Part shown: positions 8,759 to 51,210 of the stretch, one piece after another
How positions within the stretch are numbered: the first letter of the stretch is position 1
Layout of the letters: every line of letters starts with the position of its first letter
Source of the DNA: Stieleria neptunia
GTDB lineage: Bacteria > Planctomycetota > Planctomycetia > Pirellulales > Pirellulaceae
Assembly: GCF_007754155.1 (NCBI RefSeq)
Contig: NZ_CP037423.1
Coordinates: 5,948,567 to 6,012,566 of the forward strand
Length of the DNA: 64,000 nt
Reading direction: 5' to 3'
The notes under the pieces: generated by a model
What the model was told of the DNA's origin: nothing
The model's input: the letters and a program-made list of their open reading frames with translations, nothing else
Database searches by the model: none
Program-made: the position numbers and the translations under genes

Positions 8759-9130
8759 TTGAGTTCCCAAGCAAAACCGAACCTGACAGACGATGACTCT
8801 CCGAGTTGCCGAGGCGGCGAGCACGAGCATCAGCCGGTCAGGTTTAACGATGCCGCCTGTGAGCGGGCGGCGGCGATTTTCAGGGCCCTCGGTGATCCGC
8901 AACGATTGCGTTTGCTGATCATGCTGGAGGCACGGTCGTGTTGCGTCTCGGAACTCGCCGAAGCCTTGGAGGAACCGTTGCCGGCGATTTCGCAGCGTTT
9001 GCGTGTGCTCAAGAGCGAACGGGTCGTCCGATCCCGACGTGATGGCAAGCACGTTTATTACAGTCTGGCCGACGGGCACATTTCGCGATTGGTGACCAAC
9101 GGGGTCATGCACGCGATGGAAGACGCATGA
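8759..9130 (+). CDS. ArsR/SmtB-family transcriptional repressor, zinc-sensor type
   Basis: A 123-residue winged-helix repressor. The recognition region reads CCVSELAEAL-EPLPAISQRLRVLK, followed by the wing R-DGKHVYYSL. The last helix carries D105-x-H107, then H118 and E121; this spacing (2, 11, 3) is the alpha-5 zinc site of SmtB. C61 and C62 sit where alpha-3 ligands occur in CadC/SmtB. Zinc (or cobalt) release of DNA is therefore the likely mode. An N-terminal His/Cys stretch (C17, HEH at 22-24) may help binding. The start is TTG 8759; an in-frame stop at 8744 and no better start downstream support it. It faces the Cys-rich gene and precedes a Fur-family gene. Confidence 0.88.
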   Translation: MSSQAKPNLTDDDSPSCRGGEHEHQPVRFNDAACERAAAIFRALGDPQRLRLLIMLEARSCCVSELAEALEEPLPAISQRLRVLKSERVVRSRRDGKHVYYSLADGHISRLVTNGVMHAMEDA

Positions 9131-9219
9131 CCACAATCCGACCTACCCTTTAGAAGGCAAATGGCTCACGTTGACGACGAACGGTGGTCACATCGACTAT
9201 CCTCTGGGTGGACATCTGC

Positions 9220-9651
9220 ATGAAACAATCCTCCATCCCCACCGATTCCGCCAAAGACACGATTCGTGCCGTGGGACTGCGGGCGACTCCGGCGCGGCTC
9301 GCCACGTTGCAGATGTTGCGTGAGGCGATCTCGCCGATGACGCACGCGGAAGTTGCCGAGCGCTTGGCCGAGAGCGGTGTCGATAAAGCGACGGCGTTTC
9401 GCAACCTGAACGACATGACCGACGCGGGATTGCTTCGCCGCACCGAACTCGGTGATCACGTCTATCGCTTCGAAGAAATTCGCCCAGGCGAAGGCGACTC
9501 CGACGGCCATCCGCACTTTCTCTGCACCGTGTGCGGTACCGTTTCTTGCCTGGACACCGTCAAACTGACCGCAAGCAGTCAGCGCGCCAGTCAGGCGGTA
9601 GGCGAAATCACAGAGATCCTGCTCCGCGGCCGCTGCAACGACTGCAAGTAG
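9220..9651 (+). CDS. Fur/Zur-family metalloregulator
   Basis: A 143-residue Fur-family repressor. The N-terminal winged helix shows R-TPARLATLQMLR, then the recognition helix DKATAFRNLNDM. The dimer domain begins at GDHVYRFEE (H80, E85-E86). HPHFLC-VCG gives C102 and C105, and the C terminus RC-DC gives C139 and C142, the two pairs of the structural zinc site. The length is typical of short Fur or Zur proteins. Placement 90 bases behind a zinc-type SmtB sensor hints at Zur rather than Fur, but sequence alone does not decide. ATG 9220 has GGGTGGA upstream; a 12-codon extension to 9184 is possible. The gene ends tail to tail with the radical SAM operon. Confidence 0.88.
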   Translation: MKQSSIPTDSAKDTIRAVGLRATPARLATLQMLREAISPMTHAEVAERLAESGVDKATAFRNLNDMTDAGLLRRTELGDHVYRFEEIRPGEGDSDGHPHFLCTVCGTVSCLDTVKLTASSQRASQAVGEITEILLRGRCNDCK

Positions 9652-9724: not shown

Positions 9725-10645
9725 TCATCGAATGGGGCGTAACGGCGTCAACGGAATCGACGTCGGCTCATCCGTCATCGGAAAGTCGATTTTCGGCCAA
9801 GTCAGCGGGATACGCTCCAGAAGATTCTCGCCGTAGAGTTGATCGAGCCCGAAGTCTTCGCGGTGCACGTAGCCGATGTGGCATCCGCACGTCGAATTGG
9901 GGCATGCTGTGGGCTTCAACAGGGACCAGATGTCGTCGCGATAGATGTTCCCGATGACGTCGTCAACGAAGTGGCATCGTCGTGCGTCACCTTCGCCATC
10001 CACTGTGAATGACGTGTGCCCGGTCTGGCACGCTGCACCGAGACTGGGCCAACGCCGTAGATTCCATCGGAAATACGGATCGATGGAGCTCAAGAATCGG
10101 AGCTCCTCGTCTGAGTAGTCGATCCCACTGCTCTTGGGCACGTTGACCCACAGGTAAACATCACCCGGCAGGCGTTTGCGCAATTCGGCGATTTCGTCGA
10201 AATGCTCTTGAAACCCCACGACCCCGACACTGAACCGAATGCTCAGTCGTTGCAAGGTCGCACAACGATCCAGAAATCGAGGCAGGTCGGTTTCCCCGGG
10301 GTGAAAGGTTGCCCAGATGGCGATTCGATCGACCAGAGCATCCTCGAGATCGCCCAAGTAACCGCTGAGATTGGTTTGAATCGCGATCCGGTGCACATGG
10401 TCCATCCGTGACAGGTCAATCATGGCATTGCGATAGTACCGATGGATGATCGCTTCGCCCCACGGTGTGATCATCACACCGAGAGGTTGACGGCAATCGG
10501 CTGCCCAATCGACGAACCGCTGCAACTGGTCCCGATCACGATCGAGTTCTTCACGCGTGTTGGTCGTCTTGGCGAAGGGGCAATATCCGCACGCATAGTT
10601 GCAACTGGACAGCGAACCTCGATACAAAATGCGTGTGACTTTCAT
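9725..10645 (-). CDS. STM4011-family radical SAM protein
   Basis: A 306-residue enzyme. The radical SAM cluster motif C15-x3-C19-x2-C22 is at the N terminus (SSCNYACGYCPF). A second Cys set, C206, C224, C248, C253 and C255, with the pattern VDGEGD-RRC between, looks like a SPASM-type auxiliary iron-sulfur site. Such sites are common in peptide-modifying and dehydrogenating radical SAM enzymes. I recognise it as the STM4011 family, which travels with STM4012-4015 in Salmonella and other bacteria; the reaction is unknown. It is the last gene of the operon, and its start overlaps the STM4012-like stop by four bases (10642-10645). Confidence 0.85.
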   Translation of the reverse strand: MKVTRILYRGSLSSCNYACGYCPFAKTTNTREELDRDRDQLQRFVDWAADCRQPLGVMITPWGEAIIHRYYRNAMIDLSRMDHVHRIAIQTNLSGYLGDLEDALVDRIAIWATFHPGETDLPRFLDRCATLQRLSIRFSVGVVGFQEHFDEIAELRKRLPGDVYLWVNVPKSSGIDYSDEELRFLSSIDPYFRWNLRRWPSLGAACQTGHTSFTVDGEGDARRCHFVDDVIGNIYRDDIWSLLKPTACPNSTCGCHIGYVHREDFGLDQLYGENLLERIPLTWPKIDFPMTDEPTSIPLTPLRPIR

Positions 10646-11979
10646 TTCAATTCATACTGCTCCATTTGCTCTTGAACCTGATCGGAGTACAACCAGGGGC
10701 CGATCACGTCGCTGTGAGCAAGTCCATTGACAGTTAGAGTCAATCGCTGTGATGTAATCTTTGCAAAGTCGAGTCGCACGAGTTCGTCGACTTGCGGCAG
10801 CATATTGCGAACGTCACGACCAAAGTTTTCGAGAAACGCCGAACGGTCCAATCCGTCGGTTTGAAGCAGTGACCGAATGAGATATCGCCGGGCTTGCTCA
10901 TCGCGACACAACCAGACGCCATAGTCGGCGGCAGAAAAATCGGCTGTTTTGCGTTGGCAGTAGTCTGCGATGATCTTTCGGACACCGACGCCACTGACGG
11001 CGTATTCGCTGCTGTAATGCAGGTCGGACGTGTAGCTGCGAGCGCCAGGACCAAGGCCGATCATACCGTCTTCCTGGCAACAATGCTGCGTCGAATATTC
11101 AACGTCGTCCCGGCGAAACATTCGCATCGAAATTTGACGATAACCAGCCTCCAACAACATTTCTCGACCCCGTCCATAAAGATGCCTGCGATTTTCGGCA
11201 GGGCTCCGTCCGGTACGTCCAAGTCCTGTCAACTCGCGAACGTAAAGCGGGTACATGAACAGCTCTTCGGGCCGGTAGGCGAGTGCTCGCCGAACCGTCC
11301 GCACCCAATCTGCCTCGCTTTGATCGTGATTGCCATAGATCAAATCCAAGTTGAAGACCTCAACGCCACTTTGACGAATCAGGTCGATCGCCGAGTCGAC
11401 TTGGTGGTTCTGTTGAGGACGACCGAGACGATTCAAATCGCGTTGAACGAAGCTTTGCACACCCATGCTGATCCGCCGCACGCCGTGGTCGATCAGCACG
11501 CGAAGCTTGTTCGGGTCGACCGTCGCGGGCGAAACTTCGATTGAAAACGGGAAACTCGCCGTTGGGAGTGGCCAATCTCGTCGAATGGTTTGCAGGACGT
11601 CGTCGAGTTCGTCGGCGTGCAAATAAGTCGGGGTGCCGCCGCCGATGGCGACCTGAGCGACGCTCTGTGGCTCAACCGATTCCGCAACCACTCTGGATTG
11701 TCGCGTGATCGCTTTCAACGTCCGATCGACCAGTTCGTCGGCGGGTTGCGACGCTGTGAACAGGTTGCAAAACCCACACCTCATTTCGCAAAACGGAAGG
11801 TGCACGTAAAGATACAGCCGCGACTTGTCTTCGTTCGCCCAGGCGGTCGACAACTCGACGGGCGGATCGAGTTCTCGGTAGGACGTTTTGTGAGGATACG
11901 CATAGGCATAGCCCGCGTACTGATCATTCGCGATCGTTTCGGCGAGTCCGCGTGTCGATTCACCATTCAATTTCGGCAT
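10642..11979 (-). CDS. STM4012-family radical SAM protein (HemN-like)
   Basis: A 445-residue protein with the coproporphyrinogen dehydrogenase-like fold. C64-x3-C68-x2-C71 sits in the context LYVHLPFCEMRCGFCNLF, the SAM-binding glycine motif GGGTPTYL is at 113-120, and YGNHDQSEADWVRTVRRAL fits the HemN family. The C-terminal region resembles the HemW/HemN winged-helix tail. STM4012 proteins are a distinct branch, and true HemN function is unlikely because they always sit with STM4011/4013/4014-type genes. Methyltransfer or oxidation of a peptide or small molecule is possible, but no reaction is known. The start overlaps the preceding hydrolase gene by 20 bases. Confidence 0.87.
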   Translation of the reverse strand: MPKLNGESTRGLAETIANDQYAGYAYAYPHKTSYRELDPPVELSTAWANEDKSRLYLYVHLPFCEMRCGFCNLFTASQPADELVDRTLKAITRQSRVVAESVEPQSVAQVAIGGGTPTYLHADELDDVLQTIRRDWPLPTASFPFSIEVSPATVDPNKLRVLIDHGVRRISMGVQSFVQRDLNRLGRPQQNHQVDSAIDLIRQSGVEVFNLDLIYGNHDQSEADWVRTVRRALAYRPEELFMYPLYVRELTGLGRTGRSPAENRRHLYGRGREMLLEAGYRQISMRMFRRDDVEYSTQHCCQEDGMIGLGPGARSYTSDLHYSSEYAVSGVGVRKIIADYCQRKTADFSAADYGVWLCRDEQARRYLIRSLLQTDGLDRSAFLENFGRDVRNMLPQVDELVRLDFAKITSQRLTLTVNGLAHSDVIGPWLYSDQVQEQMEQYELK

Positions 11980-12769
11980 AGGGCACCTCCCAAACGACCG
12001 GATGCGCCAAGCGATGACCCCAGTAGCCTTGTTCGCCGTAGGCTGTTCCGTGATCAGAAAAGATCATGCCAAACAGACTGCCTCGGCGGCGAAAACAGTC
12101 CAGCAACCTGGGGATCTGACGGTCGATTTCGATCAACGCTTCGCCGTGGCTGTGTTTGTTGTCGGTTCGGTCTGCTGGTGAATGACCTGCCGCGGTTCGT
12201 TCCGACGCGAAAAACCAATTGGGTTGGTGGATCGCGGAAAAATTGATGAAGCAAAACACCCGTTTATCCGTTTGCTGCTCGACCCCTTCGACCGCGCAAT
12301 CCACCTGGTGGCTCGCAGAATTCCGGTCAACGACACTCATTGATTTCGACCAATGCGACTCGTCAAACAGTTCCGGCAGGACACGTCCCAACGCATTGTC
12401 AGGATTGAAGAACCCTGTACCACCGACGCAGATGGTGTGATAGCCAACCGCCGAGAGCGCTTGCGGAAGCGTCGCTTGTGGGAAAACATAGGTCTGCTCG
12501 CCCGTCGTTTCGCTGCCGCCGAAGCTTGACGCGAACAATCGGGGGTGCTTTTCTGGACCGGCGTGCGTTGGTAGGAACCCGGCGAAAAACGCATGATGGG
12601 CTGCGTAGGTGAACGTTGCGGGGGAATGTCGGCGTTGCCAGCCATTGGCCGGCAAGTAACGAGCGAAGTTGGGCAAACGCCCCTGTTCAAACAGTTCTTG
12701 GGCCACGTCAAAGCGAAGCGTATCCAGCGTTGCCATCAAGAGGTCGCTGCGTCCGATATGGGTCAACAT
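11960..12769 (-). CDS. STM4013/SEN3800-family hydrolase (alkaline phosphatase superfamily)
   Basis: A 269-residue cytosolic enzyme. ATLDTLRFD near the N terminus gives D16 and the presumed nucleophile T17, as in phosphodiesterases and phosphoglycerate mutases of the alkaline phosphatase superfamily. The metal motif SDHG is at 238-241 and GHR at 251-253. No signal peptide is seen, unlike secreted sulfatases. It matches the STM4013 family, always found with the two radical SAM genes. It probably removes or transfers a phosphate, phosphonate or sulfate from the pathway's substrate; that is inference. It overlaps the HAD gene by seven bases and the STM4012-like gene by 20, consistent with one tightly coupled transcript. 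Confidence 0.82.
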   Translation of the reverse strand: MLTHIGRSDLLMATLDTLRFDVAQELFEQGRLPNFARYLPANGWQRRHSPATFTYAAHHAFFAGFLPTHAGPEKHPRLFASSFGGSETTGEQTYVFPQATLPQALSAVGYHTICVGGTGFFNPDNALGRVLPELFDESHWSKSMSVVDRNSASHQVDCAVEGVEQQTDKRVFCFINFSAIHQPNWFFASERTAAGHSPADRTDNKHSHGEALIEIDRQIPRLLDCFRRRGSLFGMIFSDHGTAYGEQGYWGHRLAHPVVWEVPYAEIEW

Positions 12770-13362
12770 GCGGCCCCCTCAAGCCAAGGAGTCAACTGAC
12801 GCTGCAAATCATCCGGTCCAGACACCTGACAAGCCCTCCAGCCAGCAGCCCTGGCAGCCATCACGTCGGTTTCGAGTTGGTCGCCAAAGTACAGGCACTC
12901 GGTTGCCGGCAATCCTAAGGCGTTGGCGACGAACTCGAATGCTGCGCGGTCAGGTTTTGCCACGCCAATCTGAGCTGAAATGAAGATCCGATCGGACTCG
13001 ATGATCTGGTCGAGCGTCAGTGCTTGCAGTTTGATCGTCTGAGTGTCCACGCCGCCGTTGGTCAGGATGGCGAGCCTGTGATTCAATTTCAACTGTTTCA
13101 ATGCAGTCATCAACCCGAGTTCGTTTCGAATGCACCTCGCCAGCGACACGGCAAAGCGGTTTTGATCGATGTCCGCACCGGTCATCGACTCGAAAGCCGC
13201 AAAGAAGTCGTCGCGATCTCCCAAACCGTTTTGATCAAGGTCACTCAACTGTGTCCGATCACGATCGGACATGTCCAGGTTGGCGATCCAGCAATCCATC
13301 GCATGCCGGCGGTCGAACAAGGTCTGATCGAGATCGAAAACGATGGCGGTCGGTGGAATCAA
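12763..13362 (-). CDS. HAD-superfamily hydrolase (phosphatase)
   Basis: A 199-residue haloacid dehalogenase-type phosphatase. Motif I is FDLDQTLFD with D10 as nucleophile and D12 as acid/base; motif II is ILTNGG; motif III Lys lies in GVAKPDRAAF; motif IV is YFGDQLETDVMAARAAGW. The cap between motifs I and II is helical, as in subfamily IA (pyrimidine 5'-nucleotidase and phosphoglycolate phosphatase-like). Its place between the ATP-grasp and STM4013-like genes, with a four-base overlap upstream (13359-13362) and seven downstream, says it acts in the same pathway, possibly clearing a phosphorylated intermediate. It is not a fixed part of the Salmonella STM401x set as far as I know. Confidence 0.85.
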   Translation of the reverse strand: MIPPTAIVFDLDQTLFDRRHAMDCWIANLDMSDRDRTQLSDLDQNGLGDRDDFFAAFESMTGADIDQNRFAVSLARCIRNELGLMTALKQLKLNHRLAILTNGGVDTQTIKLQALTLDQIIESDRIFISAQIGVAKPDRAAFEFVANALGLPATECLYFGDQLETDVMAARAAGWRACQVSGPDDLQRQLTPWLEGAAC

Positions 13363-14471
13363 GCGAGGGCCTCCCGGTCAGCGGCGTTTGACTGAAGGAT
13401 GGCCTCATACACCGTTTTGCCGCCGGCAACTAGATTCGGCAAGAAATCACCAAACGCGTTGACTTCGCAAACCAGCGGATCACCCGAACGCGGCAACAGG
13501 ATGTCGACGCCGCAATACAGCGTTTCTGGGAAACAACTCGCCGCATGCAACGCCAGGCGTCGGCAGCGTTCGACTCGCGATGAACCGACCGCATCGGTCA
13601 CCGCCTGCAACGATCCACGCCGATTTCCCAAGTGCAAGTTCGTGATCGGCGAAGCGCTTTGCCGTACCACCAGATGCTCGGCACGTCCGTTGATCACCAC
13701 GACGCGCAGGTCAAAACGGTCGCCTTCGACGCGAGCTTTGTTCACGGCGGCCTCGGCGATCATGCCCTGAGGGACGAGTACTGCGAAGATGTCTTCGATG
13801 TCACTTGGCGATGTGAACGAACGCACGCGAAGGGAATTAAACAATCCGATGCCGCCCGCGTCACGGACAATCTCGATGGGCGCGATCAATTGCTGCCGAC
13901 CCTTGCTGATGCGGTAGCAGCACACGCCGGACGCGGACGATGCATACCGAGGTTTCACAAAAACTCGGCCGCCGACCTGCTTCGCAAAGCGCCTCAAGGA
14001 TTCCCCGAATGAGATCTTTTCGGTCGGCAGCAATCTCGTTTGGGGGCGGTCAGGCAACAATCGCCGATGCGTTGCCCATTTGTCGAACATGACGGCAATG
14101 TCCATCGGATTTTGATCGAGCGATATCTCGGTGCGCTGCGTCGACCAATGGCTCAGATCTTCCAGTACCCGGCAGAGACCTGAGTATTGCCGGTCCAGCG
14201 ATTGGATTTCTCCCGGCTTTGGAAATGCGTTTCCTCCGCCATGTCGGATGAGCGCGGCAAGCACATCGTCACGCTGACCGAACGAATCGATCCGCAATCG
14301 GGATCCGGCGGGAATGCAATTCAATGCCTGACAACCACGACCGATCAAATCCAGCCATTCGACGCACCTCGGCGGTTGCATTCCACATCGCACCGCAGCT
14401 GCACTGTAGTCGGAGAATCGTTTGCTTGAGGAATCGCCGAGGATCCAGTGTGTTTGTGGTGACGGCGGCAT
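13359..14471 (-). CDS. STM4014-family ATP-grasp protein
   Basis: A 370-residue protein with ATP-grasp features in its C-terminal half: a VFVKPRYASSASGV phosphate-binding strand and loop, a Q-LIAPIEIV region, DLRVVVINGR, and EVNAFGDFLPNLV, which supplies the Mg-binding E-x-N. ATP-grasp enzymes ligate a carboxylate to an amine or thiol through an acyl-phosphate, often amino-acid or peptide ligation in natural-product pathways. The STM4014 family is the expected partner of the neighbouring radical SAM genes. ATG 14471 lies four bases after the stop of the WGR-LRR gene; a longer frame from 14513 would overlap that gene and is less likely. The stop overlaps the HAD start. Confidence 0.84.
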   Translation of the reverse strand: MPPSPQTHWILGDSSSKRFSDYSAAAVRCGMQPPRCVEWLDLIGRGCQALNCIPAGSRLRIDSFGQRDDVLAALIRHGGGNAFPKPGEIQSLDRQYSGLCRVLEDLSHWSTQRTEISLDQNPMDIAVMFDKWATHRRLLPDRPQTRLLPTEKISFGESLRRFAKQVGGRVFVKPRYASSASGVCCYRISKGRQQLIAPIEIVRDAGGIGLFNSLRVRSFTSPSDIEDIFAVLVPQGMIAEAAVNKARVEGDRFDLRVVVINGRAEHLVVRQSASPITNLHLGNRRGSLQAVTDAVGSSRVERCRRLALHAASCFPETLYCGVDILLPRSGDPLVCEVNAFGDFLPNLVAGGKTVYEAILQSNAADREALA

Positions 14472-14475
14472 GCGA

Positions 14476-15678
14476 CTATTCACCCACGGCCACAAACCGC
14501 CACTCTTCGTCATCGTCCATGTGACTGGGCTTGGATAAATCCATCTTGATCGGCAGTTTTTTCAACAACTTGGTGACTTCGCTTGTCAAATAGTTGTAGT
14601 GAAGACTGGCATGCTGAAGAGCCCCGTCAGTCGGCAGCGAGAGAAGGGCCCTTCCACCTTCATCTGTCATCACACCCAACGAGAGGTCGAGCGTTTCGAT
14701 GCGCTGGACGAGCGGACTGTTGACAATCACCGCGGCAACATCATCTGCGAACTGACAATTTCGCAAGCCTAGGTATTTCAAGTTCGGAAAGAGATCGCCA
14801 CTGAGAATCGGTTGCAAATCTTCGATTGTGCTATCGCCACCGTACTCGTCGGTTCCGAGCCAGAGTTCCAAATGCTCCAGTGCAGGGAATTTGGAACGCC
14901 CAACGGCGCGCACAACCTCGGCCGGCAAGCCACCAGACTCGCAAATCAGGCCTCGCAATTTCGCGTGCTGCGGCTTGCTAATCGCAAGATCATTGCCACC
15001 CCGGGTTCGCAGCAATTCCAACTCCGGGAACGCATTCAACAACGGCGACACATCTGCCTGATGAATCCACGACATTTCATTTTCTTCAGAAACGATGTCG
15101 CCGAGGTAGATCGCTTTGAGGCTCTTGAGTCGATCGCGATTTTCACAGAGCAGTTCGATCACATCGCTGGGATCGCCATCGCTGTCATCGCCAGCCCAAT
15201 TGCCGATGATGATTCCCATCGCTTCGCTGGCCGCGTCGGTGTCCAGAAAGTGCGTCAGGTGCGGGATGCAGGTGGCGTCATCATAGTCGCTGCGAAAACG
15301 GTAAACCGTCTTGCCACCGCTGGTCGGTTTCTTGTCGGGCTCATAATCTGCGACACGTTTCCCAATGAAGGTTTTCGCGTTGTGATCAATATCGTCTTGC
15401 TTCACGATCGAGCGAAACGCGAGTACCGGCAGCACGTCACCGTCCTTCCCTGTTGAGGCGGAAGCACTGCCGGCATCCACATAGCCCTTTTTCATTTTGG
15501 CAGCGACCAACTTGTCAAAGTCCTTGCGAGCCGCCTCCTCGTTGGCAAAGCTTTTTGTCTTCGTCTGTCCATCGGTACCTGATCGCCCAAAGTTCACCGT
15601 GTGCGAGTCGCCGCTGAGTTCAATGTTCCAAAACTTGTTCGATGCCGAATCCATGAAAACCAACTCGCGTCGATTCAT
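14476..15678 (-). CDS. WGR domain plus leucine-rich repeat protein, STM4015-like
   Basis: A 400-residue protein in two parts. Residues 1-70 form a WGR domain (FWNIELSGDSHTVNFGRSGTDGQTKTKSF...A..DF-KLVA-K--KGY), a nucleic-acid-associated fold also found in PARPs and MolR proteins. From about residue 170 follow leucine-rich repeats (LKAIYLGD, LELLRTRG, LEHLELWLG, LKYLGLRNCQFAD, IETLDLSLG, LQHASLHYNYL). NCBI calls this arrangement the STM4015 family, and it occurs with STM4011-4014. A scaffold or recognition role is inferred, since no catalytic motif is seen. ATG 15678 has GGAG eight bases upstream; the 17-codon extension is not needed. It lies 69 bases behind the DUF6745 gene. Confidence 0.82.
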   Translation of the reverse strand: MNRRELVFMDSASNKFWNIELSGDSHTVNFGRSGTDGQTKTKSFANEEAARKDFDKLVAAKMKKGYVDAGSASASTGKDGDVLPVLAFRSIVKQDDIDHNAKTFIGKRVADYEPDKKPTSGGKTVYRFRSDYDDATCIPHLTHFLDTDAASEAMGIIIGNWAGDDSDGDPSDVIELLCENRDRLKSLKAIYLGDIVSEENEMSWIHQADVSPLLNAFPELELLRTRGGNDLAISKPQHAKLRGLICESGGLPAEVVRAVGRSKFPALEHLELWLGTDEYGGDSTIEDLQPILSGDLFPNLKYLGLRNCQFADDVAAVIVNSPLVQRIETLDLSLGVMTDEGGRALLSLPTDGALQHASLHYNYLTSEVTKLLKKLPIKMDLSKPSHMDDDEEWRFVAVGE

Positions 15679-15747
15679 CGGTTGCTCCAGGGGGAAGTGA
15701 GACAAGGCGTAATGGGAAAACGCCGACAATCTACCAGACTTGAACGA

Positions 15748-16683
15748 CTAGGTTTCAATCGTCGGCCGGTAAAGAGACGGATCGTCAAAGCCGGCCATCC
15801 AGGCGGCGGCTTGGTGGCAGGTTTTCATCTGCGGTGGAACTCGCAAAAAATACTGACGGTTCGTCGATGGACATCGGCACGCCAACCCAACCAGCGGCTC
15901 ATCGTCGCCGAGTTCAATTTGTAACAATTGCCGATTGCCGCCGGCGTCGGTGTCCTGGTCCAACTCCTTCGCACCGACCTCCTCCGAGAATCGCAAGTAT
16001 CCCATGCGTTCGATCATGACCCGGCGCAGCTCCGCGTTCTTTTCGGCCAAGACCTGCTTTGAGGTGATTTTCTCGGGCTCGAACGCGATCTCGTGCGTTA
16101 CCGGAACACTCCGCCATCGTAGCGGAGCGGTCCGAAGCGAATTCGGCAACGAAGCAATGCTCGAACCACCGATGTCGATCCAGCCGGACACCCGGAGCCC
16201 CTCAGGCACCTCGTGCAGGTTCACACAACCGGCTAAATCCAACTGCCCGAGCGGCCCCAACCAGCGAGGAAGATTGCGGACTTCGATGCAGTTTCTCAAA
16301 TGCACGTTACCGTTTCGGATCGTCGCCTCTTTTGGCCAGACGGATAGACGAGGGCACTCACTCGCATTCAAGAACCATGTGTTCAACCGCTCTGGCAATC
16401 TGTCCAGGAAGTTGCAGCCTCGCAAACTGAGTGATCCACACGTCAATCCAGTCGGCAACCGCTCCAAATGCTTGCAATTATCCAGGGTCAGCCGCGATCG
16501 CACTTTCACTTTTGACGAAAGGGACGTAATCGCAGTACCGCTGAGGTCCAGATCATTGCACGTGATCGAGCAGGGGACCGTTTTTACTTCCGTACCGCTC
16601 AAATCGATGCTGCCATCGACGCGAACGGCCTTCGATTCACCCGCAAGCACATGCTCACGGGCCTGCAGTGGCGTCATGATCAT
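15748..16683 (-). CDS. leucine-rich repeat protein with DUF6745
   Basis: A 311-residue protein. Residues 20-190 are short imperfect LRR-like units (DLSGTEVKTVP, DLSGTAITSL, LTLDNCKHLERLP, LSLRGCNFLDRLP, LDLAGCVNLHEVPEGL, IDIGGSSIASLP). The C-terminal 120 residues match what I know as DUF6745: TSKQVLAEKNAELRRVMIERMG, then REYFL-like RVPP, CHQAAAWMAG and a final YRPTIET. Function is unknown; actinobacteria also carry such proteins. ATG 16683 lies four bases after the stop of the His-rich gene with GGGAC upstream; ATG 16677 is an alternative. It likely belongs to the same transcript as the radical SAM genes. Confidence 0.75.
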   Translation of the reverse strand: MIMTPLQAREHVLAGESKAVRVDGSIDLSGTEVKTVPCSITCNDLDLSGTAITSLSSKVKVRSRLTLDNCKHLERLPTGLTCGSLSLRGCNFLDRLPERLNTWFLNASECPRLSVWPKEATIRNGNVHLRNCIEVRNLPRWLGPLGQLDLAGCVNLHEVPEGLRVSGWIDIGGSSIASLPNSLRTAPLRWRSVPVTHEIAFEPEKITSKQVLAEKNAELRRVMIERMGYLRFSEEVGAKELDQDTDAGGNRQLLQIELGDDEPLVGLACRCPSTNRQYFLRVPPQMKTCHQAAAWMAGFDDPSLYRPTIET

Positions 16684-16687
16684 GGCT

Positions 16688-16990
16688 TCAGTCCCGGATG
16701 GTGCGAATTTCTTCGGGTGAATACTCTCGTTGCCGCCAGACGCGATAAAAGCCGGACGTCAATGTGATGGCGTCGTGTTCGTCATGGACCAGGGTCGCGA
16801 CCTCCGCTGTCACGTGAAGAAACAGACCGTCGGGTGTGTCGTACAGATCGGCCGCACCCCGTTCGGCGATTCGATGGCAGTGCCCGGTCAGCTCGCCGTG
16901 GGCAAGAATAGTGTGTTGTGCCTTGCGTCGAGTGTCCGGCAAGGTTGCCACCTCTTCGACCATGACGTCCCCGTGACGAAATTGAGACAT
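16688..16990 (-). CDS. small His-rich beta-fold protein, first gene of the radical SAM operon
   Basis: A 100-residue protein: MSQFRHGDV, ILAHGELTGHCHRI, DGLFLHV-AEVATLVHDEH, SGFYRVWRQREY. Regular beta strands and the eight histidines (H6, H26, H31, H37, H39, H59, H69, H72) suggest a small cupin-like barrel that could hold a metal, but I know no named function. Homologous small proteins accompany LRR-DUF6745 proteins elsewhere, as I recall, so the two probably act together. ATG 16990 has GGAAC upstream; a longer frame to 17107 exists but looks non-coding. It is separated from the DUF6745 gene by only four bases, which ties it to the operon. Confidence 0.72.
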   Translation of the reverse strand: MSQFRHGDVMVEEVATLPDTRRKAQHTILAHGELTGHCHRIAERGAADLYDTPDGLFLHVTAEVATLVHDEHDAITLTSGFYRVWRQREYSPEEIRTIRD

Positions 16991-34357: not shown

Positions 34358-37300
34358 ATGCTCGACTCAATCATCAAATTCTCTTTGCGTTACCGCATGC
34401 TGGTCGTCGCGATCAGTTTGATCGTGCTGGTCTACGGTTCGTACCTTGCCACCCAAATGTCGATCGACGTCTTTCCAGACCTTGATCGGCCTCGCGTTGT
34501 CATCATCACCGAAGCACCCGGCCTGGCGACAGAGGAAGTTGAAACGCTGGTCACTCAGCCGATCGAGATCGCGTTGATGGGGGCCAACGGAGTGCAGGCC
34601 GTCCGCAGTCAGTCGACTTCCGGCTTGAACATCATCTTCATCGAATTCGATTGGTCGACCGAAATTCGCGCGGCTCGCCAGACCGTGCAAGAACGATTGA
34701 CCACGCTCGAAGGGATCCTGCCCGCCGGAATTCGGCCGCAGATGACACCGCCGTCCTCAATCATGGGCCAGATCATCATCGCGGGGATCTATCGCCAAGA
34801 CGGTCCCAATGGCGGAAAACTCGCTCAAGTTGGAACGACCAATCTGATGGCGGAAATGATCGAGGCCGACGGAAAGACGCCTCGCATCGACGTTTGGCGA
34901 CCGGGCGATCGACACGATTTTGCGACTTGGGAGAAACTTGATCCGCAATTCGCCGACTGGTCGACGGCCGAAGAGCCAAACACCCCAACCGCGACGATTG
35001 CGATCGACGATCGAACCTATGAAGCAAACTTCTATTGCGACACAAAGCAACAACTCGAACTTCGTACGATCGCCGACTGGATCATCCGGCCTCGGCTCTT
35101 GAAGACAACAGGCGTCGCGGAAGTCTTCATGCAGGGCGGCGATCGAAAACAGTATCAGATTTTGATCAACCCCACCGCACTGTTGGAATACGACATTACG
35201 GTGCAAGACGTTGAGAAAGCGCTGCGGGAAAGCAACATCAACACGAGCGGCGGGTTCGCCGTCACAGGCGAGACGGAACGCCCGATTCGTGTGCTTGGGC
35301 GACTCGGGCCGCAATCGCGAGTCGTCATTGAAGACCTCAAAAAGGTGCCGGTCGGCAGCAATCCGAAACGCTCCGTGTTGCTCGAACAAGTCGCCCGAGT
35401 GACCGAGGGACCGCAGTTCAAGCGGGGCGACGGAAGTGTCAACGGTCGGCCTGGAATCGTGTTCACGACGGTCAAACAACCGCACGTCGATACACGGCAA
35501 CTGACCGACGATGTTGCGGCGGCGTTCGCGGAAGTCGAAGCGTCGTTGCCAGCCGACATCATCGTCAATAGCGAATTGTTTCGACTGAAGAACTTCATTG
35601 ACCGCGGGATCTTTAACGTTGCAGAAGCCCTCGTGATCGGTGCTGTGCTGGTCATCATCGTGTTGTTCCTGTTCCTGCTGAATTTCCGTACGACGTTCAT
35701 CACGCTAACCGCCATTCCGCTGTCGCTTGTGTTGACAACACTCGTTTTCCGATTGGTCGGGATCCTTAGCGGCAGTGAACTGTCGATCAACGTCATGACG
35801 CTTGGCGGTATCGCCGTTGCCATGGGCGAATTGGTCGATGATGCGATTGTAGACGTTGAGAACATTTTTCGGCGTTTGAAGCAAAACAACTCGCTGCCAA
35901 TCGAAGAACAAAAGCCGTCGATCGTCATTGTCTTTGAAGCGAGTAAAGAGATTCGCAGTTCGATCGTTTTCGGCACCGCCGTTGTCATTCTTTCGTTCCT
36001 GCCACTGTTCGCGCTCTCGGGAGTGGAAGGCCGTTTGTTTACGCCGCTTGGCCTTGCGTACATCGTTTCAATTCTCGCATCGTTCGTCGTGTCGATGACA
36101 GTCACGCCGGTGCTTTCGTACTACTTGCTTCCAAAGTCAGGTGCGACTCACCACCAGGGCGACGGGTTCTTGCTGCACGGGCTGAAGAAGCTCGTCACGC
36201 CGCTGATACGACTTAGCATGTCAATGCCTCGCACGCTGCTGATCCTGACTTGGATCGCCGTCGCGCTGGCGGCTTGGCAAATGTCCCAGTTGGGCAGAAA
36301 CTTCTTGCCGCCCTTCGACGAAGGCAGCATCCAAGTGAACGTGACGCTGCCGCCGGGTTCGTCACTGGATGCGTCGAACAAGGTGTCGCGTGCTATCGAC
36401 GCGGTCTTTCAGTCAATGCAGAAGACAGACGAAACGCCCAACGGAGAAATTCTGTATTTTGTTCGCCGGACCGGTCGGGCCGAGATGGATGAACATGCAT
36501 CGCCGGTGAACTTTGGCGAATACATCCTCAGCATGAATCCGGACTCCGGCACGAATCGCGAGGACATCCTTGCCGATTTGCTGGAGAAGATCAGCGACGA
36601 AGCGCCGGGTGTTGACATTGAAGTCGAACAACCGCTTGCCCACTTGATCAGCCACATGGTTTCGGGCGTCTACGCTCAAATTGCGATCAAAATTCACGGC
36701 GATGATCTCGACACGCTTGGTCGTGTAGCAGAGCAAGTCAAAAACACGATCCAGGATATCCCTGGCATCACGCCTCCGATCGTCGAGCCGATTCGCGAAA
36801 CGGCCGAGTTGCACATCGAGTTGCGCGCAGACGACTTGGCTCTGCACGGCCTGACTCGAGAGTACGTTGCCAACGTGTTGCAAACGGCTTTGCAAGGCGA
36901 GGTGGTCTCACAAGTACTCGAAGGCCAACGTCGTTTCGATCTACTCGTTCGCTTGGAAGAGGAGTATCGGACCGACTATGCCAATCTCGGGCGTCTTCGT
37001 ATCGACTTGCCGCATCAAGCCGACGAAACCGAACGCGGGCAGATTGAACTGCGAGAGGTCGCAGACATCGGTGAAGGCACGGGGCCAAACTCCGTCAATC
37101 GGGAAAACGCCCGCCGACGGATCGTGATCCGCTGCAATACGCAGGGCCGTGATCTTGCCAGTGCGGTGGGGGAAATCAAACAACGAGTCGACGATGAAGT
37201 GCAAATGCCGATCGGCTATTTCATCGAGTATGGCGGGCAGTTTGAAAGCCAGCAGCGTGCGACTCAGCTGATCATCGTTCTGGCCGGCATCTCCATCGTT

Positions 37301-37813
37301 GGAATGTTTGTGGTGCTGATGCTGCTGTTTCCATCGGTGCGTATCGTCCTGCAAGTTCTCAATGCCTTGCCGACCGCGTTCATCGGCGGTGTGCTGGCGT
37401 TGGTCATCACGCAGCAAAGTCTAACGGTCGCAAGCTTGGTTGGCTTCATTTCGCTCGGTGGGATCGCGGTTCGCAATGGGATTCTTCTGGTAACGCATTA
37501 CTTCCACTTGATGAAAGAGGAAGGTCAAGACTTTTCGCAAGCGATGATCGTTCGCGGAAGCCTTGAACGACTCGCACCTGTGTTGATGACGGCGCTTACC
37601 GCGGGCATTGGACTGATTCCATTGGTTTTGGGTGGCCAAGAACCTGGACGTGAAATTCTTTACCCGGTGGCAACGGTCATCCTTGGTGGATTGACCACGT
37701 CAACCTTTTGCGAATTCCTGATTCACCCAGGACTGTTTTGGAAGTTCAGCGGCCGAGACGCCGCGCGGCTTGCCGAGCAAAAAACAGAGGAGGACGAACT
37801 GGCAATGATTTAG
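34358..37813 (+). CDS. cusA: CusA/CzcA-family heavy-metal RND efflux pump
   Basis: A 1151-residue inner-membrane pump, about 100 residues longer than E. coli CusA. Twelve helices, two large periplasmic loops, and the proton-relay helix GELVDDAIVDVENIFRRL with paired Asp are present. Family stretches include STSGLNIIFIEFDW, FAVTGETERPIRVLGRL, LFALSGVEGRLFTPLGLAYIVSI and a C-terminal LLVTHYFHLM. An extra segment at about residues 155-225 (from EMIEADGKTPRIDVW to CDTKQQLELR) splits the porter domain just before ADWIIRPRLL; I know this only from planctomycete-type homologs. Substrate is probably Cu(I)/Ag(I), given copA nearby, but Zn/Co/Cd is possible. Confidence 0.92.
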   Translation: MLDSIIKFSLRYRMLVVAISLIVLVYGSYLATQMSIDVFPDLDRPRVVIITEAPGLATEEVETLVTQPIEIALMGANGVQAVRSQSTSGLNIIFIEFDWSTEIRAARQTVQERLTTLEGILPAGIRPQMTPPSSIMGQIIIAGIYRQDGPNGGKLAQVGTTNLMAEMIEADGKTPRIDVWRPGDRHDFATWEKLDPQFADWSTAEEPNTPTATIAIDDRTYEANFYCDTKQQLELRTIADWIIRPRLLKTTGVAEVFMQGGDRKQYQILINPTALLEYDITVQDVEKALRESNINTSGGFAVTGETERPIRVLGRLGPQSRVVIEDLKKVPVGSNPKRSVLLEQVARVTEGPQFKRGDGSVNGRPGIVFTTVKQPHVDTRQLTDDVAAAFAEVEASLPADIIVNSELFRLKNFIDRGIFNVAEALVIGAVLVIIVLFLFLLNFRTTFITLTAIPLSLVLTTLVFRLVGILSGSELSINVMTLGGIAVAMGELVDDAIVDVENIFRRLKQNNSLPIEEQKPSIVIVFEASKEIRSSIVFGTAVVILSFLPLFALSGVEGRLFTPLGLAYIVSILASFVVSMTVTPVLSYYLLPKSGATHHQGDGFLLHGLKKLVTPLIRLSMSMPRTLLILTWIAVALAAWQMSQLGRNFLPPFDEGSIQVNVTLPPGSSLDASNKVSRAIDAVFQSMQKTDETPNGEILYFVRRTGRAEMDEHASPVNFGEYILSMNPDSGTNREDILADLLEKISDEAPGVDIEVEQPLAHLISHMVSGVYAQIAIKIHGDDLDTLGRVAEQVKNTIQDIPGITPPIVEPIRETAELHIELRADDLALHGLTREYVANVLQTALQGEVVSQVLEGQRRFDLLVRLEEEYRTDYANLGRLRIDLPHQADETERGQIELREVADIGEGTGPNSVNRENARRRIVIRCNTQGRDLASAVGEIKQRVDDEVQMPIGYFIEYGGQFESQQRATQLIIVLAGISIVGMFVVLMLLFPSVRIVLQVLNALPTAFIGGVLALVITQQSLTVASLVGFISLGGIAVRNGILLVTHYFHLMKEEGQDFSQAMIVRGSLERLAPVLMTALTAGIGLIPLVLGGQEPGREILYPVATVILGGLTTSTFCEFLIHPGLFWKFSGRDAARLAEQKTEEDELAMI

Positions 37814-39327: not shown

Positions 39328-41745
39328 TTACGTGAGTTTAGCGGCACGCAATCGCAACGCATTTGCAATCACGGATACACTGCTAAAACTCATCGCTGCC
39401 GCTGCAATCATGGGGCTCAGCAGCACGCCGAAGATTGGATACAGCAACCCAGCCGCGACCGGAATTCCCAGTGCGTTGTAGATGAAAGCGAAGAACAGAT
39501 TTTGACGAATGTTGCTCATCGTTTTGCGACTCAAGTTCGCCGCCGCCGCCACCCCGCGCAGATCGCCACCGACGAGCGTGACGCCGGCGGACTCAATCGC
39601 AACGCCCGTCCCCGTGCCCATGGCGATGCCAACATTCGCTTCGGCGAGTGCAGGAGCGTCGTTGATTCCATCGCCACACATCGCAACTGTTTTGCCTTTC
39701 TCCGTCAGCTTGCGGACGAAGTCATGCTTTTCCTCGGGCGAAAACCCGGCATGAAACTCGTCGATGCCCAGTTTCGATGCGACGGCTTTCGCGGTCGGTT
39801 CGGCATCGCCGGTCAACATCACGACTTTCAATGCCAGTTCATGCAAGGTCTTAAGTGCTGCAGGAGTGCTTTGCTTGATTGGGTCCGTGATGGCCAGGAT
39901 TGCCGCCAACTTGCCGTCGATCGCCACAAACACAACCGTCGCCCCCTCGGCCTGATGCGATCCCGCTTTGTCCCGACCCGCATCGACGCCCTCGATGCCT
40001 TGTTCGACCAAAAGGTCAGCCTTGCCGATCAACACATCATGATCATCGACGCGGGCGCGAACGCCACCACCGGTGATACTGTTGAACTCTTCTGCCTCCA
40101 CAAGCTGCAACTCATCCGCCTTCGCTCGGCGAACGACCGCCTGAGCCAACGGATGCTCGCTCTGGGCTTCGACCGCAGCAGCCAACGTCAACACATCATT
40201 CTCATTCCAGCCACCAAACGTTTCGACCCCCGTCACTTCCGGTCGTCCCTGCGTCAGCGTGCCCGTCTTGTCGACAACAATCGTGTCAACCTTCTCCATG
40301 ACTTCAAGGACTTCCGCGTTCTTAATCAAGACGCCTTCCTTGGCACCGCGGCCAACACCCACCATCACCGACATGGGCGTCGCCAGCCCTAGCGCGCATG
40401 GACAAGCAATGATCAACACCGCAACGGCCGCTACGAACGCATGAGCGAGTTGCGGTTCAGGACCAAACACGGCCCAGCCGATGAACGCGAGAATCGAACA
40501 AGCGATTACCGCCGGCACGAAGTAACGAGCGACCACATCGACAAGCTTCTGAATCGGCGCGCGACTTCGTTGAGCGTCGGCAACCATTTGCACGATCCGG
40601 TTCAGAACGGTGTCGCCGCCAACACCGACGGCCTCCATCACGAGCGCACCGGTCTGGTTCAAGGTCCCGCCCGTGATCTCGTCGCCTTCCACTTTCTTCA
40701 CCGGCATCGGCTCGCCCGTCAGCATCGACTCGTCAACGCTGCTCGACCCACTCAATACTTTTCCATCGACCGGAACTTTTTCGCCAGGACGAACGCGCAG
40801 CCGATCGCCTTGGCGGACTGAATCGAGCGAGACGTCTTCCTCGCCATCGTCTGTCATTCGGTGCGCCGTGTCGGGAGCAAGCTTCATGAGTTCGCGAATC
40901 GCTCCGCCCGTCTGTTGTCGTGCTCGCAGTTCCAATACTTGTCCAAGCAACACCAGCGTGATGATCACCGCCGCGGCTTCAAAATAGAGTGGCGGGACAC
41001 CGTTTTCGAAAAAGGCTTCCGGGATCACACCAGGAAGCAACACGACGACGAAACTGAACAGATACGCCGCCAACGTGCCCACCGCGATCAACGAGAACAT
41101 GTTCAAGTTCATCGTGCGAAATGACTTGGCTCCACGAACCAACAAGGGCCATCCGCACCAGAACACAACCGGTGTCGCCAACGCCAACTGCACCCAGCCA
41201 AAGACGGTTTGGCTCATCCAATCCGCGACCCGCAAACCCACCATCGGCCCCATCGCGATCACGAGCAATGGCACCGACAACGCAACGCCAACGCAAAAGC
41301 GACGTTTCATGTCGGCGTATTGTTGATCTTCACCCTCGTCATCCAACGCGACGACCTTCGGCTCCAAGTCCATTCCACAAATCGGGCAATCGCCGGGGCC
41401 AACTTGCTCGATCTCCGGGTGCATTGGACAAGTAAAAAGAGTCTGGGAGTCGGGAGAGGGGGAGTCGGGAAGACGTTGCGTCGATGATGGTTTTCGCTTC
41501 GCCTTGGTCGCTGATCCGCCACAGCACGAATGCTCCATCTTCCCATCTCCCGGACTCCCACTCTCCCCATCTTTGTCTGCAAGCACGCCCGCCGGGTCGT
41601 GCTCGAACTTCGTCAAGCACCGATCGCTGCAAAACACGTACTTCTCGCCTTCAAACTCGGCCGATCGTGGGCTATCCGCGGGGACGGTCATTCCGCAAAC
41701 CGGATCGATCTGCTTCTCCCTCGCTCTATCTTCGGTGTGGTCCAT
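39328..41745 (-). CDS. copA: copper-exporting P-type ATPase CopA
   Basis: An 805-residue P1B-type ATPase. N terminus: a YHS/TRASH-type zinc or copper ribbon (DPVCGMTV at 14-21, FCSDRC at 38-43), a Ser/Pro linker, then a heavy-metal-binding domain ([25 protein letters not shown], 105-129). There is no CxxC HMA domain. The transport site is CPC at 448-450, the phosphorylated Asp is D492 in DKTGT, and the actuator TGEP is at 343-346. The C-terminal helix pair carries [22 protein letters not shown] and [19 protein letters not shown], typical of Cu(I) exporters. GAGAG lies just before ATG 41745. The linker at 59-102 is coded by an inverted G-rich repeat (see findings). Confidence 0.95.
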
Positions 41746-44125: not shown

Positions 44126-45352
44126 CTAAGCGTCAAACAGGCTGATAGGCAAAGATTGTCGTGGCACAGGCAATTTCAGTGCGGTGCCCAACCACTTTTG
44201 TGCGACTTCCTGGTACATGTTGCGAAAGTCGGTGGTCATTTGCAGGTCACCGTCGACGAGGTCGGACAGTTTGGGTGTTGATCCGATCAACCCGGATCGG
44301 ACTTGGCTGCCGGCAAGGAAGACGGGGCCGGCGGTTCCGTGGTCGGTTCCTTCGGAACCATTCTCGGTGACCCTCCGGCCGAATTCGCTAAAGCCCATCA
44401 CGCAGATTCGATCGGAGATTCCTGCAGCCTCCACGTCGTCCATGAACGCTTTGACCGCATCGGAAAATTCTCTGAGCAAACGCGCGTGCGACGGCAATTG
44501 AGCCGCGTGGGTGTCGTAGCCGCTGTGGATCGCGTAGTAGATGGGCGTTTGAAAACCGCTTTTGACCATGGTTGAAATGGTCTGCATGCGCTGCCCGAGC
44601 CTTGTGGACGGGAACTTGGCACTGCCATCGATTCTATCCTCGATGTTTTGCTCCAATACACTCGCCGTGGTGATCGCGTTTTGCATCGTCTGATCGACGA
44701 ACCGGGCAAGCGAGGAGTTAGGCGTCTGGTCGTTTTGAATTGTCGGTTGTGCGACGGCGGGTCGACGAAGTCGCAAGTCGCTTAGGCTAGACAGTGTCAC
44801 GGCGGTCGAGCGACGACTTTGGATGGCCAGTGGTGGGGATTCGTCGCCGACCAATATCATGTCGGGATCTTTTGCTCCACCCCCGATGACGGCTTCGCGG
44901 GTTGTGTCCATCGCCTTGCCAAGCCACCCGTGGGATCGCAGCGTCTCTTCGCCGCCGACCTGGGCCGAGTGCCAGATCGCCATGCTCGTGTCGTGCGAAC
45001 GACTCGGGTTCGGATAGCCGACACCTTGTACGATTCCAAGCTTACCTTGTTCAAGCAGATCCGCCGCAGAACGCATCGACGGGTGAAATCCCACCGACTC
45101 GTCAATCTTGAGTAGCCGATCCGTCGACAATCGCAGTTTCTTGCGGTGCTTTGCGTAACCTTCGTCGGCATAGGGGACGATCGTGTTGATTCCGTCATTG
45201 CCGCCGCTCATCTGGATCACGACCAAGATCTTGCCGTTTTGTCCCGGCAGAGAACGGTCGTCGGCCACCACTGCCCGGCTGACCAGCGAGGTCATTGCTC
45301 CCAACACTACGGTGGAACTCTGGTCAAGAAAGCGTCGTCGATTCGTTTTCAT
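44126..45352 (-). CDS. DUF1501 protein with Tat signal
   Basis: A 408-residue protein. MKTNRRRFLDQSSTVVLGA is a twin-arginine export signal. DUF1501 stretches follow: ILVVIQMSGGNDGINTIVPY, GIVQGVGYPNPSRSHD-SMAIWHSA, GYDTHAAQLPSHARLLREFSDAVKAFMDDV, GFSEFGRRVTENGSEGTDHGTAGPVFLAGSQV. The TDHGTA pattern relates it to the alkaline phosphatase/sulfatase superfamily. It follows a DUF1800 gene by 29 bases, the usual pairing in planctomycetes and proteobacteria. Exact role unknown; an envelope or surface function is inferred from export. Confidence 0.92.
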   Translation of the reverse strand: MKTNRRRFLDQSSTVVLGAMTSLVSRAVVADDRSLPGQNGKILVVIQMSGGNDGINTIVPYADEGYAKHRKKLRLSTDRLLKIDESVGFHPSMRSAADLLEQGKLGIVQGVGYPNPSRSHDTSMAIWHSAQVGGEETLRSHGWLGKAMDTTREAVIGGGAKDPDMILVGDESPPLAIQSRRSTAVTLSSLSDLRLRRPAVAQPTIQNDQTPNSSLARFVDQTMQNAITTASVLEQNIEDRIDGSAKFPSTRLGQRMQTISTMVKSGFQTPIYYAIHSGYDTHAAQLPSHARLLREFSDAVKAFMDDVEAAGISDRICVMGFSEFGRRVTENGSEGTDHGTAGPVFLAGSQVRSGLIGSTPKLSDLVDGDLQMTTDFRNMYQEVAQKWLGTALKLPVPRQSLPISLFDA

Positions 45353-45381
45353 CGTTTGTTCCCGTGTCTTCGTGGATTCAA

Positions 45382-46737: not shown

Positions 46738-46857
46738 GGCTGCAATTCCTTCTCGCAATATTTTCCTGCCATTGCATCAGACTCAAAACGATATTTGTCT
46801 TTTTGCCGACACGCTCCAAGCTCAGAATTCGCGCCGGCTTCCGCGCGGATACCGCCC

Positions 46858-50826: not shown

Positions 50827-51210
50827 ATGAACACGACGCAACTGGGACGGGTGCAACTGCTGATCATGCAGGTGCTCTGGGAAAACGAACGGGCGACCGC
50901 TCGTGAGATCACCGACCGAATCAATCAGTCCGAACCGATCGCTCACAGCACCGTGCAAACGCTGCTGCGAGGATTGGAAGATAAGCAAGCGGTCGACCAT
51001 GAAACCGAGGGACGCACCTTCACGTTCTTTCCGTTGATTTGCGAAGCGGACTTCAAGCAATCGGCGACCCAAGACCTGCTCACCCGTGTCTTCCGCGGCA
51101 GCGTCGAAGGGTTGGTCGCCCACTTGCTGCAAAGCGAAGACGTTTCCGCGGATGAACTCGCTGACCTTCGCAAACTGATCAACCGCCAAGCCAAGAAGAA
51201 GGGATCGTGA
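50827..51210 (+). CDS. BlaI/MecI-family repressor (pair 2)
   Basis: A 127-residue winged-helix repressor: LGRVQLLIMQVLWENERATAREITDRINQSEPIAHSTVQTLLRGLEDKQAVDHETEGRTFTFFPLI, then a short C-terminal helix region (LTRVFRGSVEGLVAHLLQSEDVSADELADLRKLI). ATG 50827 has GAGGA seven to ten bases upstream. It is transcribed away from pair 1, with 172 bases between the two starts, and its stop overlaps the second M56 gene by one base (TGATG). Confidence 0.9.
   Translation: MNTTQLGRVQLLIMQVLWENERATAREITDRINQSEPIAHSTVQTLLRGLEDKQAVDHETEGRTFTFFPLICEADFKQSATQDLLTRVFRGSVEGLVAHLLQSEDVSADELADLRKLINRQAKKKGS

Follow-up and report, generated by a model that had tools for sequence, protein, structure and literature searches.

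The STM4011–STM4015 operon of Stieleria neptunia: a leucine-rich-repeat protein with a fixed C-terminal glutamate as the predicted substrate of an ATP-grasp ligase

What is acted upon by an operon that encodes an ATP-grasp ligase, two radical S-adenosylmethionine (SAM) enzymes and two phosphatase-like hydrolases next to leucine-rich-repeat (LRR) proteins? The question is raised by a locus of the planctomycete Stieleria neptunia that carries the STM4011–STM4015 genes, and we considered it within a window of 64,000 nucleotides (bases 5948567–6012566 of a single-contig genome of 10.98 Mb; coordinates below are counted from the first base of the window and include the stop codon). Eight open frames, all on the minus strand, run there from a small protein with conserved histidines (the His protein, from 16990) to STM4011 (ending at 9725). 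A preliminary description of this DNA gave the LRR proteins no direct part in what it took for a small-molecule pathway of unknown product, but the evidence favours STM4015 as the substrate or carrier of the ATP-grasp enzyme STM4014, for which it is the most likely candidate. With moderate confidence, we propose that STM4014 loads the terminal Glu of STM4015 in the way that LysX loads LysW, and that the attached group is the target of the radical SAM and phosphatase-like enzymes. The finding of a fixed terminal Glu moves the operon from an unknown product to one simple test, that of the mass of STM4015.

The evidence for this lies at the very end of STM4015, an acidic WGR and LRR protein and the predicted carrier or substrate (14476–15678, with an ATG start taken in a frame open to 15729; NF038076 309.9 bits, cut-off 275; WGR 67.2 bits, cut-off 22). 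The window copy terminates in WRFVAVGE and a stop codon (14476–14502); the conserved Glu, where we predict the attachment to take place, corresponds to the last codon (14479–14481). Glu directly precedes the stop in 107 of 111 STM4015 open reading frames (ORFs), and when 106 tails were aligned to their ends it was terminal in 105, while the other 19 of the last 20 positions varied, mostly around [Y/F][V/I]AV[S/G]E. All 120 listed database matches also end in Glu, although these are the best-scoring ones for a profile that contains the tail and the sample is hence biased. In none of the five enzymes, by comparison, is the last residue constant. A C-terminal Glu is what a LysW-type amino-group carrier has, and STM4015 shares it without sharing the rest of such a carrier: the aligned tails mostly end otherwise than in the EDWGE motif (PMC10433800), and no Cys is conserved at 90% or more in 105 STM4015 sequences, as the small Zn-Cys domain of LysW would demand. 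STM4015 is instead an LRR protein with a length of at least about 300 residues (family median about 306) with a solved homologue, 2ra8 (E = 1.2e-88). The family is very acidic (median isoelectric point, pI, 4.54) and the neighbouring STM4014 is basic, a pattern resembling that of amino-group carriers, which are acidic, and their enzymes, which are basic, according to the available part of one account (PMC9303977).

Which kind of ligase, then, is STM4014 (13359–14471, with an ATG start taken in a frame open to 14513; NF038074 282.1 bits, cut-off 175)? Residues K145, K187, E254, D268, R270, D337, E350 and N352 are conserved at 95% or more in 76 sequences; we take them to be the nucleotide- and metal-binding sites, and on this pattern the protein would be an active ATP-grasp enzyme. 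Its profile matched LysX best among PDB entries (8.5e-8), with RimK next. Its structural model (predicted local distance difference test, pLDDT, 91.6) has a LysX/ArgX-type fold: Foldseek placed ArgX-LysW first and also matched LysX, and the fold Z scores were 23.4 for LysX, 22.6 for LysX/ArgX, 22.6 for ArgX and 22.0 for RimK. We therefore class it as a ligase of the LysX/RimK type and as the predicted STM4015 loader. As far as the available sections of the sources describe them, LysX and ArgX couple an amino group to LysW through the gamma-carboxyl of its terminal Glu and recognise EDWGE through a C-terminal GSWGR motif (PMC10433800), and RimK extends the C-terminus of RpsF with Glu (PMC10092738).

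The third rank in the same Foldseek search went to chains of PsnB, a graspetide ligase, and the stretch ahead of the STM4015 tail is rich in Asp and Glu. Both would suit a graspetide-like enzyme, with STM4014 crosslinking a carboxylate of the acidic tail to a nucleophile within STM4015 and the radical SAM enzymes adding further crosslinks. We regard this as very improbable, for the terminal Glu is the one near-invariant residue in the last 20 positions of the 106 tails, and there is no fixed Lys, Ser, Thr or Cys partner; nor is STM4015 a graspetide precursor or other ribosomally synthesized and post-translationally modified peptide (RiPP) precursor of the usual sort, that is, short and with fixed nucleophile–acceptor pairs. 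Conservation confined to the terminus better suits a ligase that loads the end of the protein.

Loading of STM4015 by STM4014 gains further from the way in which the two genes are distributed. In 150 genomes of the actinobacterial order of Sinosporangium album (the organism of locus L081), both genes occur in exactly the same 86. These genomes hold 241 STM4015 copies in total, with more than one copy in 67 of them and a maximum of eight, and STM4014 is single-copy except in G487, which has two, and for split frames in G508 and G550. Among stop-terminated STM4015 copies from 50 actinobacterial loci, 96 of 97 end in Glu, the exception being a fragment match, and this set extends to stand-alone copies that lie far from the operon (L196, L197, L200, L201, L203, L205, L209, L210 and L212). 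Seven of these stand-alone genes (L196, L200, L201, L203, L205, L209 and L210) have varied neighbours, which may give a clue to the role of the proteins, if they are modified. In a small control, two LRR relatives without an accompanying STM4014, L157 and L158, end in Asp and Ala. The N-terminal parts of STM4015 proteins are variable: WGR is present in the window copy and in six of ten long copies scanned, and BRCT in one of them. WGR and BRCT are, elsewhere, domains related to nucleic acids or ADP-ribose. At L045 (4901–6208), the BRCT domain is inserted within the LRR part.

Several observations weigh against the proposed loading. Four STM4015 ORFs depart from the terminal Glu, two of them as fragments (L116 and L131), one by ending in Gly (L111) and one by carrying four extra residues after AVSE (L103); the two control proteins cover no more than part of the profile, and STM4014 is present elsewhere in one of their genomes (G164). 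The PDB match of the STM4014 profile consists of two weak pieces, a graspetide ligase ranks third among its structural neighbours, and its scores fall far below the family cut-offs of both LysX (TIGR02144, 15.2 against 275.6 bits) and RimK (TIGR00768, 23.7 against 143.4 bits). The Z score of LysX exceeds that of RimK by 1.4 and that of glutathione synthetase by 2.2, margins so small that the fold alone leaves the substrate of STM4014 unfixed. Median pI values of 5.6–6.2 for STM4012, STM4013 and the HAD hydrolase mean that these enzymes are not basic, and no peptidase or release enzyme is present in the core. Finally, fixed C-terminal residues are also found in two proteins of the operon that occur independently of STM4014. 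It is because of these fixed ends and the small Z margin between ligase families that our confidence is held at a moderate level.

The two proteins are the His protein (16688–16990; 100 residues; phrog_27831, E = 1.5e-14) and an LRR protein with a DUF6745 domain (15748–16683; PF20530 78.8 bits, cut-off 27). In the scans done, the former matched no Pfam or NCBIfam model; alignments show conserved His 37, 39, 69 and 72 and an invariant terminal Asp, and its model is all-beta (pLDDT 87.3), with a tail that is flexible although the terminal Asp is fixed. It accompanies DUF6745 in 28 of 29 loci, and it ends in Asp in 28/28 operon loci, in 119/120 database matches and in 7/7 loci without STM4011. 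Across all complete copies, those of phages and of loci without STM4011 included (the window, L037, L038, L136, L138, L143, L144 and L145 among them), one alone departs from the terminal Asp. The last residue of the DUF6745 protein is Thr or Ser in 28/29 operon loci and in 9/9 loci without STM4011. Since these ends are kept where STM4011–STM4015 are missing, a fixed end is, by itself, no proof of loading by STM4014; they may mark another function of the pair, or they may weaken the inference drawn for STM4015. The His and DUF6745 genes are also neighbours, without STM4011–STM4015, in two phages, the Microcystis phage MaMV-DC and a siphovirus unrelated to it (L037 4968–6499 and L038 3622–5315).

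Fixed ends of this sort might equally serve for docking, and they lend some weight to the model of the preliminary description, in which a free small molecule is ligated, dephosphorylated and oxidised while STM4015 acts as a scaffold only, its tail being a docking motif. All the enzyme types are compatible with a soluble pathway, and LRR domains bind proteins. We nevertheless consider this model unlikely: a scaffold would hardly be expected in as many as eight copies for a single ligase, some of them remote from the operon, the conserved element is the terminal residue and not a longer docking sequence, and the ligase class is one that acts on a protein C-terminal Glu.

Is the operon itself more than a chance arrangement, and which of its genes belong together? 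Adjacent genes overlap by 4, 20, 7 and 4 bases or are separated by gaps of 4, 69 and 4 bases (starts as chosen), in agreement with the layout of eight minus-strand genes in the preliminary description, whose family names are likewise correct, the curated cut-offs being exceeded, and whose view of a single operon is supported. All five STM4011–STM4015 proteins score above their NCBIfam cut-offs and are encoded together; judged by profile scores, the family assignments are firm for these five and for HAD, WGR and DUF6745. Iterated profiles were scored on the window, six plasmid loci, 80 genome loci and planctomycete loci, and removal of weak or duplicate loci left 98. STM4011 was present in 98 of these, STM4012 in 94, STM4013 in 89, STM4015 in 83 and STM4014 in 80. 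The co-occurrence of the five families named in the preliminary description is borne out, as the complete core is found in 76 of the 98 loci, many of the remainder lying on short contigs. The core order STM4015-4014-4013-4012-4011 is kept on plasmids of Streptomyces, Deinococcus, Methylobacterium, Paenibacillus and Salmonella, and the core is found in loci of many phyla; this recurrence indicates that the arrangement is more than chance. On a Bacteroides plasmid the set is incomplete, with STM4012 not found and STM4013 present as a fragment only.

Beyond the core, HAD was found in 32 loci, DUF6745 in 29 and the His protein in 28. All eight genes are present in four loci (the window, L039, L040 and L119) and in identical order in three (the window, L039 and L040). 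The larger set had been put forward as an extension of the Salmonella-type operon, and it is not a local accident, since the added genes recur as neighbours elsewhere; the DUF6745 and His genes, however, form a separate optional cassette. The pair occurs without STM4011–STM4015 in other planctomycetes as well, DUF6745 being present in 12 of 392 planctomycete genomes and STM4011 in four of those 12, in one of them on another contig, and this makes it an optional partner and not an extension of the core. Three blocks are shuffled as units, namely STM4015-4014, (HAD)-4013-4012-4011 and His-DUF6745. The first lies on the strand opposite to STM4011 in 21 of 80 loci, and STM4014 was located elsewhere in nine of the 12 genomes whose STM4011 locus lacked it. 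In the 392 planctomycete genomes, STM4011 and STM4014 exceeded their cut-offs in 11 and 12, respectively, all of the 11 being among the 12. STM4015 was matched at E ≤ 1e-20 in each of these 12, and in a thirteenth genome, G044, an STM4015-like match occurs where STM4014 is missing. Such tight co-occurrence of the blocks (11 in 12 planctomycetes; the core in 76/98 loci) suggests one pathway, and on gene content the five core genes are best read as one system with HAD and His-DUF6745 as recurrent options. A database search with STM4011 gave 5755 matches at E ≤ 0.001, not all of them true family members, and the closest relatives of the window protein are planctomycete proteins. At L131, in planctomycete genome G048, fragments of STM4011, STM4014 and STM4015 look like a decayed copy of the operon.

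What chemistry might follow the loading? STM4011 (9725–10645; NF038073 373.7 bits, cut-off 200) is a radical SAM enzyme with a CX3CX2C motif, five further conserved Cys and a C-terminal part resembling SPASM/Twitch. The SPASM motif comprises a first half, CX9-15GX4C, and a second half, CX2CX5CX3C...C. The SPASM-like extra Cys noticed earlier prove to be conserved: Cys 15, 19, 22, 206, 224, 248, 253 and 255 reach at least 95% in 101 sequences. C206-X12-G219-X4-C224, whose residues are equally conserved, corresponds to the first half. The second half is not matched, C248-X4-C253-X-C255 being found instead, and against PF13186 only the Bacteroides protein reached 18.3 bits (cut-off 21.5). STM4012 (10642–11979; NF006067 536.2 bits, cut-off 380) is a HemN/HemW-like radical SAM enzyme with C64, C68, C71 and GGGTP conserved at 95% or more in 91 sequences. 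STM4013 (11960–12769; NF038075 355.1 bits, cut-off 250; Sulfatase PF00884 28.0 bits, cut-off 25) is a hydrolase of the alkaline-phosphatase/sulfatase superfamily in which D16, T54, H58, H181, D239, H240 and H252 are conserved at 95% or more in 88 sequences. Sulfatases have a catalytic Cys or Ser for formylglycine; assigned by eye, Thr54 appears to occupy the place of the sulfatase Cys. The HAD-superfamily hydrolase (12763–13362; subfamily IA; PF00702 59.7 bits, cut-off 26.4) is translationally coupled to STM4013, and its residues D10, D12, K136, D161 and D166 are conserved in 33 sequences. In all 32 loci that have it, the HAD gene lies directly upstream of STM4013, with gaps of -6 to 21 in 30 of 33 cases and larger ones in L052, L074 and L063. 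Salmonella has a HAD-IIB gene after STM4011, and in Bacteroides HAD-IIB is fused to STM4011; the use of different HAD types at these loci points to a phosphatase step within the pathway. No further recurrent partner gene was found in the loci examined.

Computation thus shows the genetic and structural prerequisites, namely the fixed terminal Glu, the class of the ligase, the coupling and joint occurrence of STM4015 and STM4014, and conserved residues in the active sites. We infer from these parts a covalent loading, an order of steps and a radical-enzyme chemistry that would run as follows. STM4015, an acidic LRR protein made by the ribosome, would offer its C-terminal Glu for attachment; STM4014 would activate this Glu with ATP and join to it an amine-bearing building block, either at the gamma-carboxylate (the LysW case) or at the alpha-carboxylate (the RimK case). 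The HAD and STM4013 hydrolases might then remove or move phosphate groups, and the HemN-like STM4012 and SPASM-like STM4011 might carry out C–H or C–C chemistry on the attached group, a single ligase serving several STM4015 proteins in trans. As the core is without a peptidase, the modified group may remain on the LRR protein as a prosthetic group; alternatively, a peptidase encoded elsewhere may release it.

Among known systems, LysW/LysX and ArgW/ArgX come closest, with an acidic carrier that ends in Glu and is encoded with an ATP-grasp ligase, and with LysX and ArgX as the closest solved structures to STM4014. The carriers differ, LysW being a 54-residue Zn protein with an EDWGE end and STM4015 an LRR protein of 300–650 residues, often with WGR and with several carriers per ligase, and so do the enzymes: radical SAM, HAD and alkaline-phosphatase-superfamily enzymes here, against a kinase, a reductase, an aminotransferase and a peptidase in LysW pathways. 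RimK and RpsF (ribosomal protein S6) offer an ATP-grasp enzyme acting on a protein C-terminus, with a similar fold and Z score, but STM4015 is not ribosomal and is accompanied by radical SAM and phosphatase-like enzymes. Pearlins such as 3-thiaglutamate and ammosamide are metabolites built on the C-terminus of a ribosomal scaffold, including radical SAM steps, as far as the available part of the source relates (PMC9303977); there, ligation proceeds through aminoacyl-tRNA and a PEARL enzyme, whereas the STM4011–STM4015 set encodes an ATP-grasp enzyme. The Salmonella set itself, defined in NCBIfam, is represented in the window by all five members, in the order seen on the Salmonella plasmid; HAD-IA, DUF6745 and the His protein come in addition in the window.

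More tentatively, the operon might represent a third kind of protein-tethered chemistry, alongside LysW carriers and pearlins, in which an LRR family of one to eight members per genome carries a radical-SAM-built prosthetic group or metabolite on its C-terminal Glu and is served in trans by one operon. HemN acts on coproporphyrinogen, and by analogy the HemN-like enzyme might act on the propionate-like side chain of Glu. The operon is spread over Salmonella, Bacteroidota, Actinomycetota, Deinococcota, Myxococcota and Planctomycetota, as a conserved five-gene set with thousands of homologues, and, if the proposal is true, an LRR-made carrier with several carriers per ligase would join the known ways of building molecules on proteins. 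In the openly licensed literature we found no function for STM4011–STM4015, whose names were seen as table entries only, and nothing on 2RA8/Q64V53, on WGR with radical SAM and LRR, or on DUF6745 and similar terms, an absence that is provisional; ATP-grasp surveys did not mention WGR, leucine-rich or YheC, and the graspetide survey among them was also without STM40 and DUF6745.

A few further genes of the window lie outside the operon. Two regulator genes on the plus strand, ArsR-like (8759–9130, assigned by eye) and Fur-like (9184–9651, by match), converge on the operon end. A heavy-metal P-type ATPase with YHS and HMBD domains (39331–41745) has an adjoining RND-type efflux gene (34358–37810, by eye), and a DUF1501–DUF1800 gene pair lies at 44129–46758. 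M56 (BlaR1-type) peptidase domains together with carboxypeptidase-regulatory domains occur in two large proteins (46861–50223 and 51207–54608), which are encoded on opposite strands with a 201-residue ORF between them.

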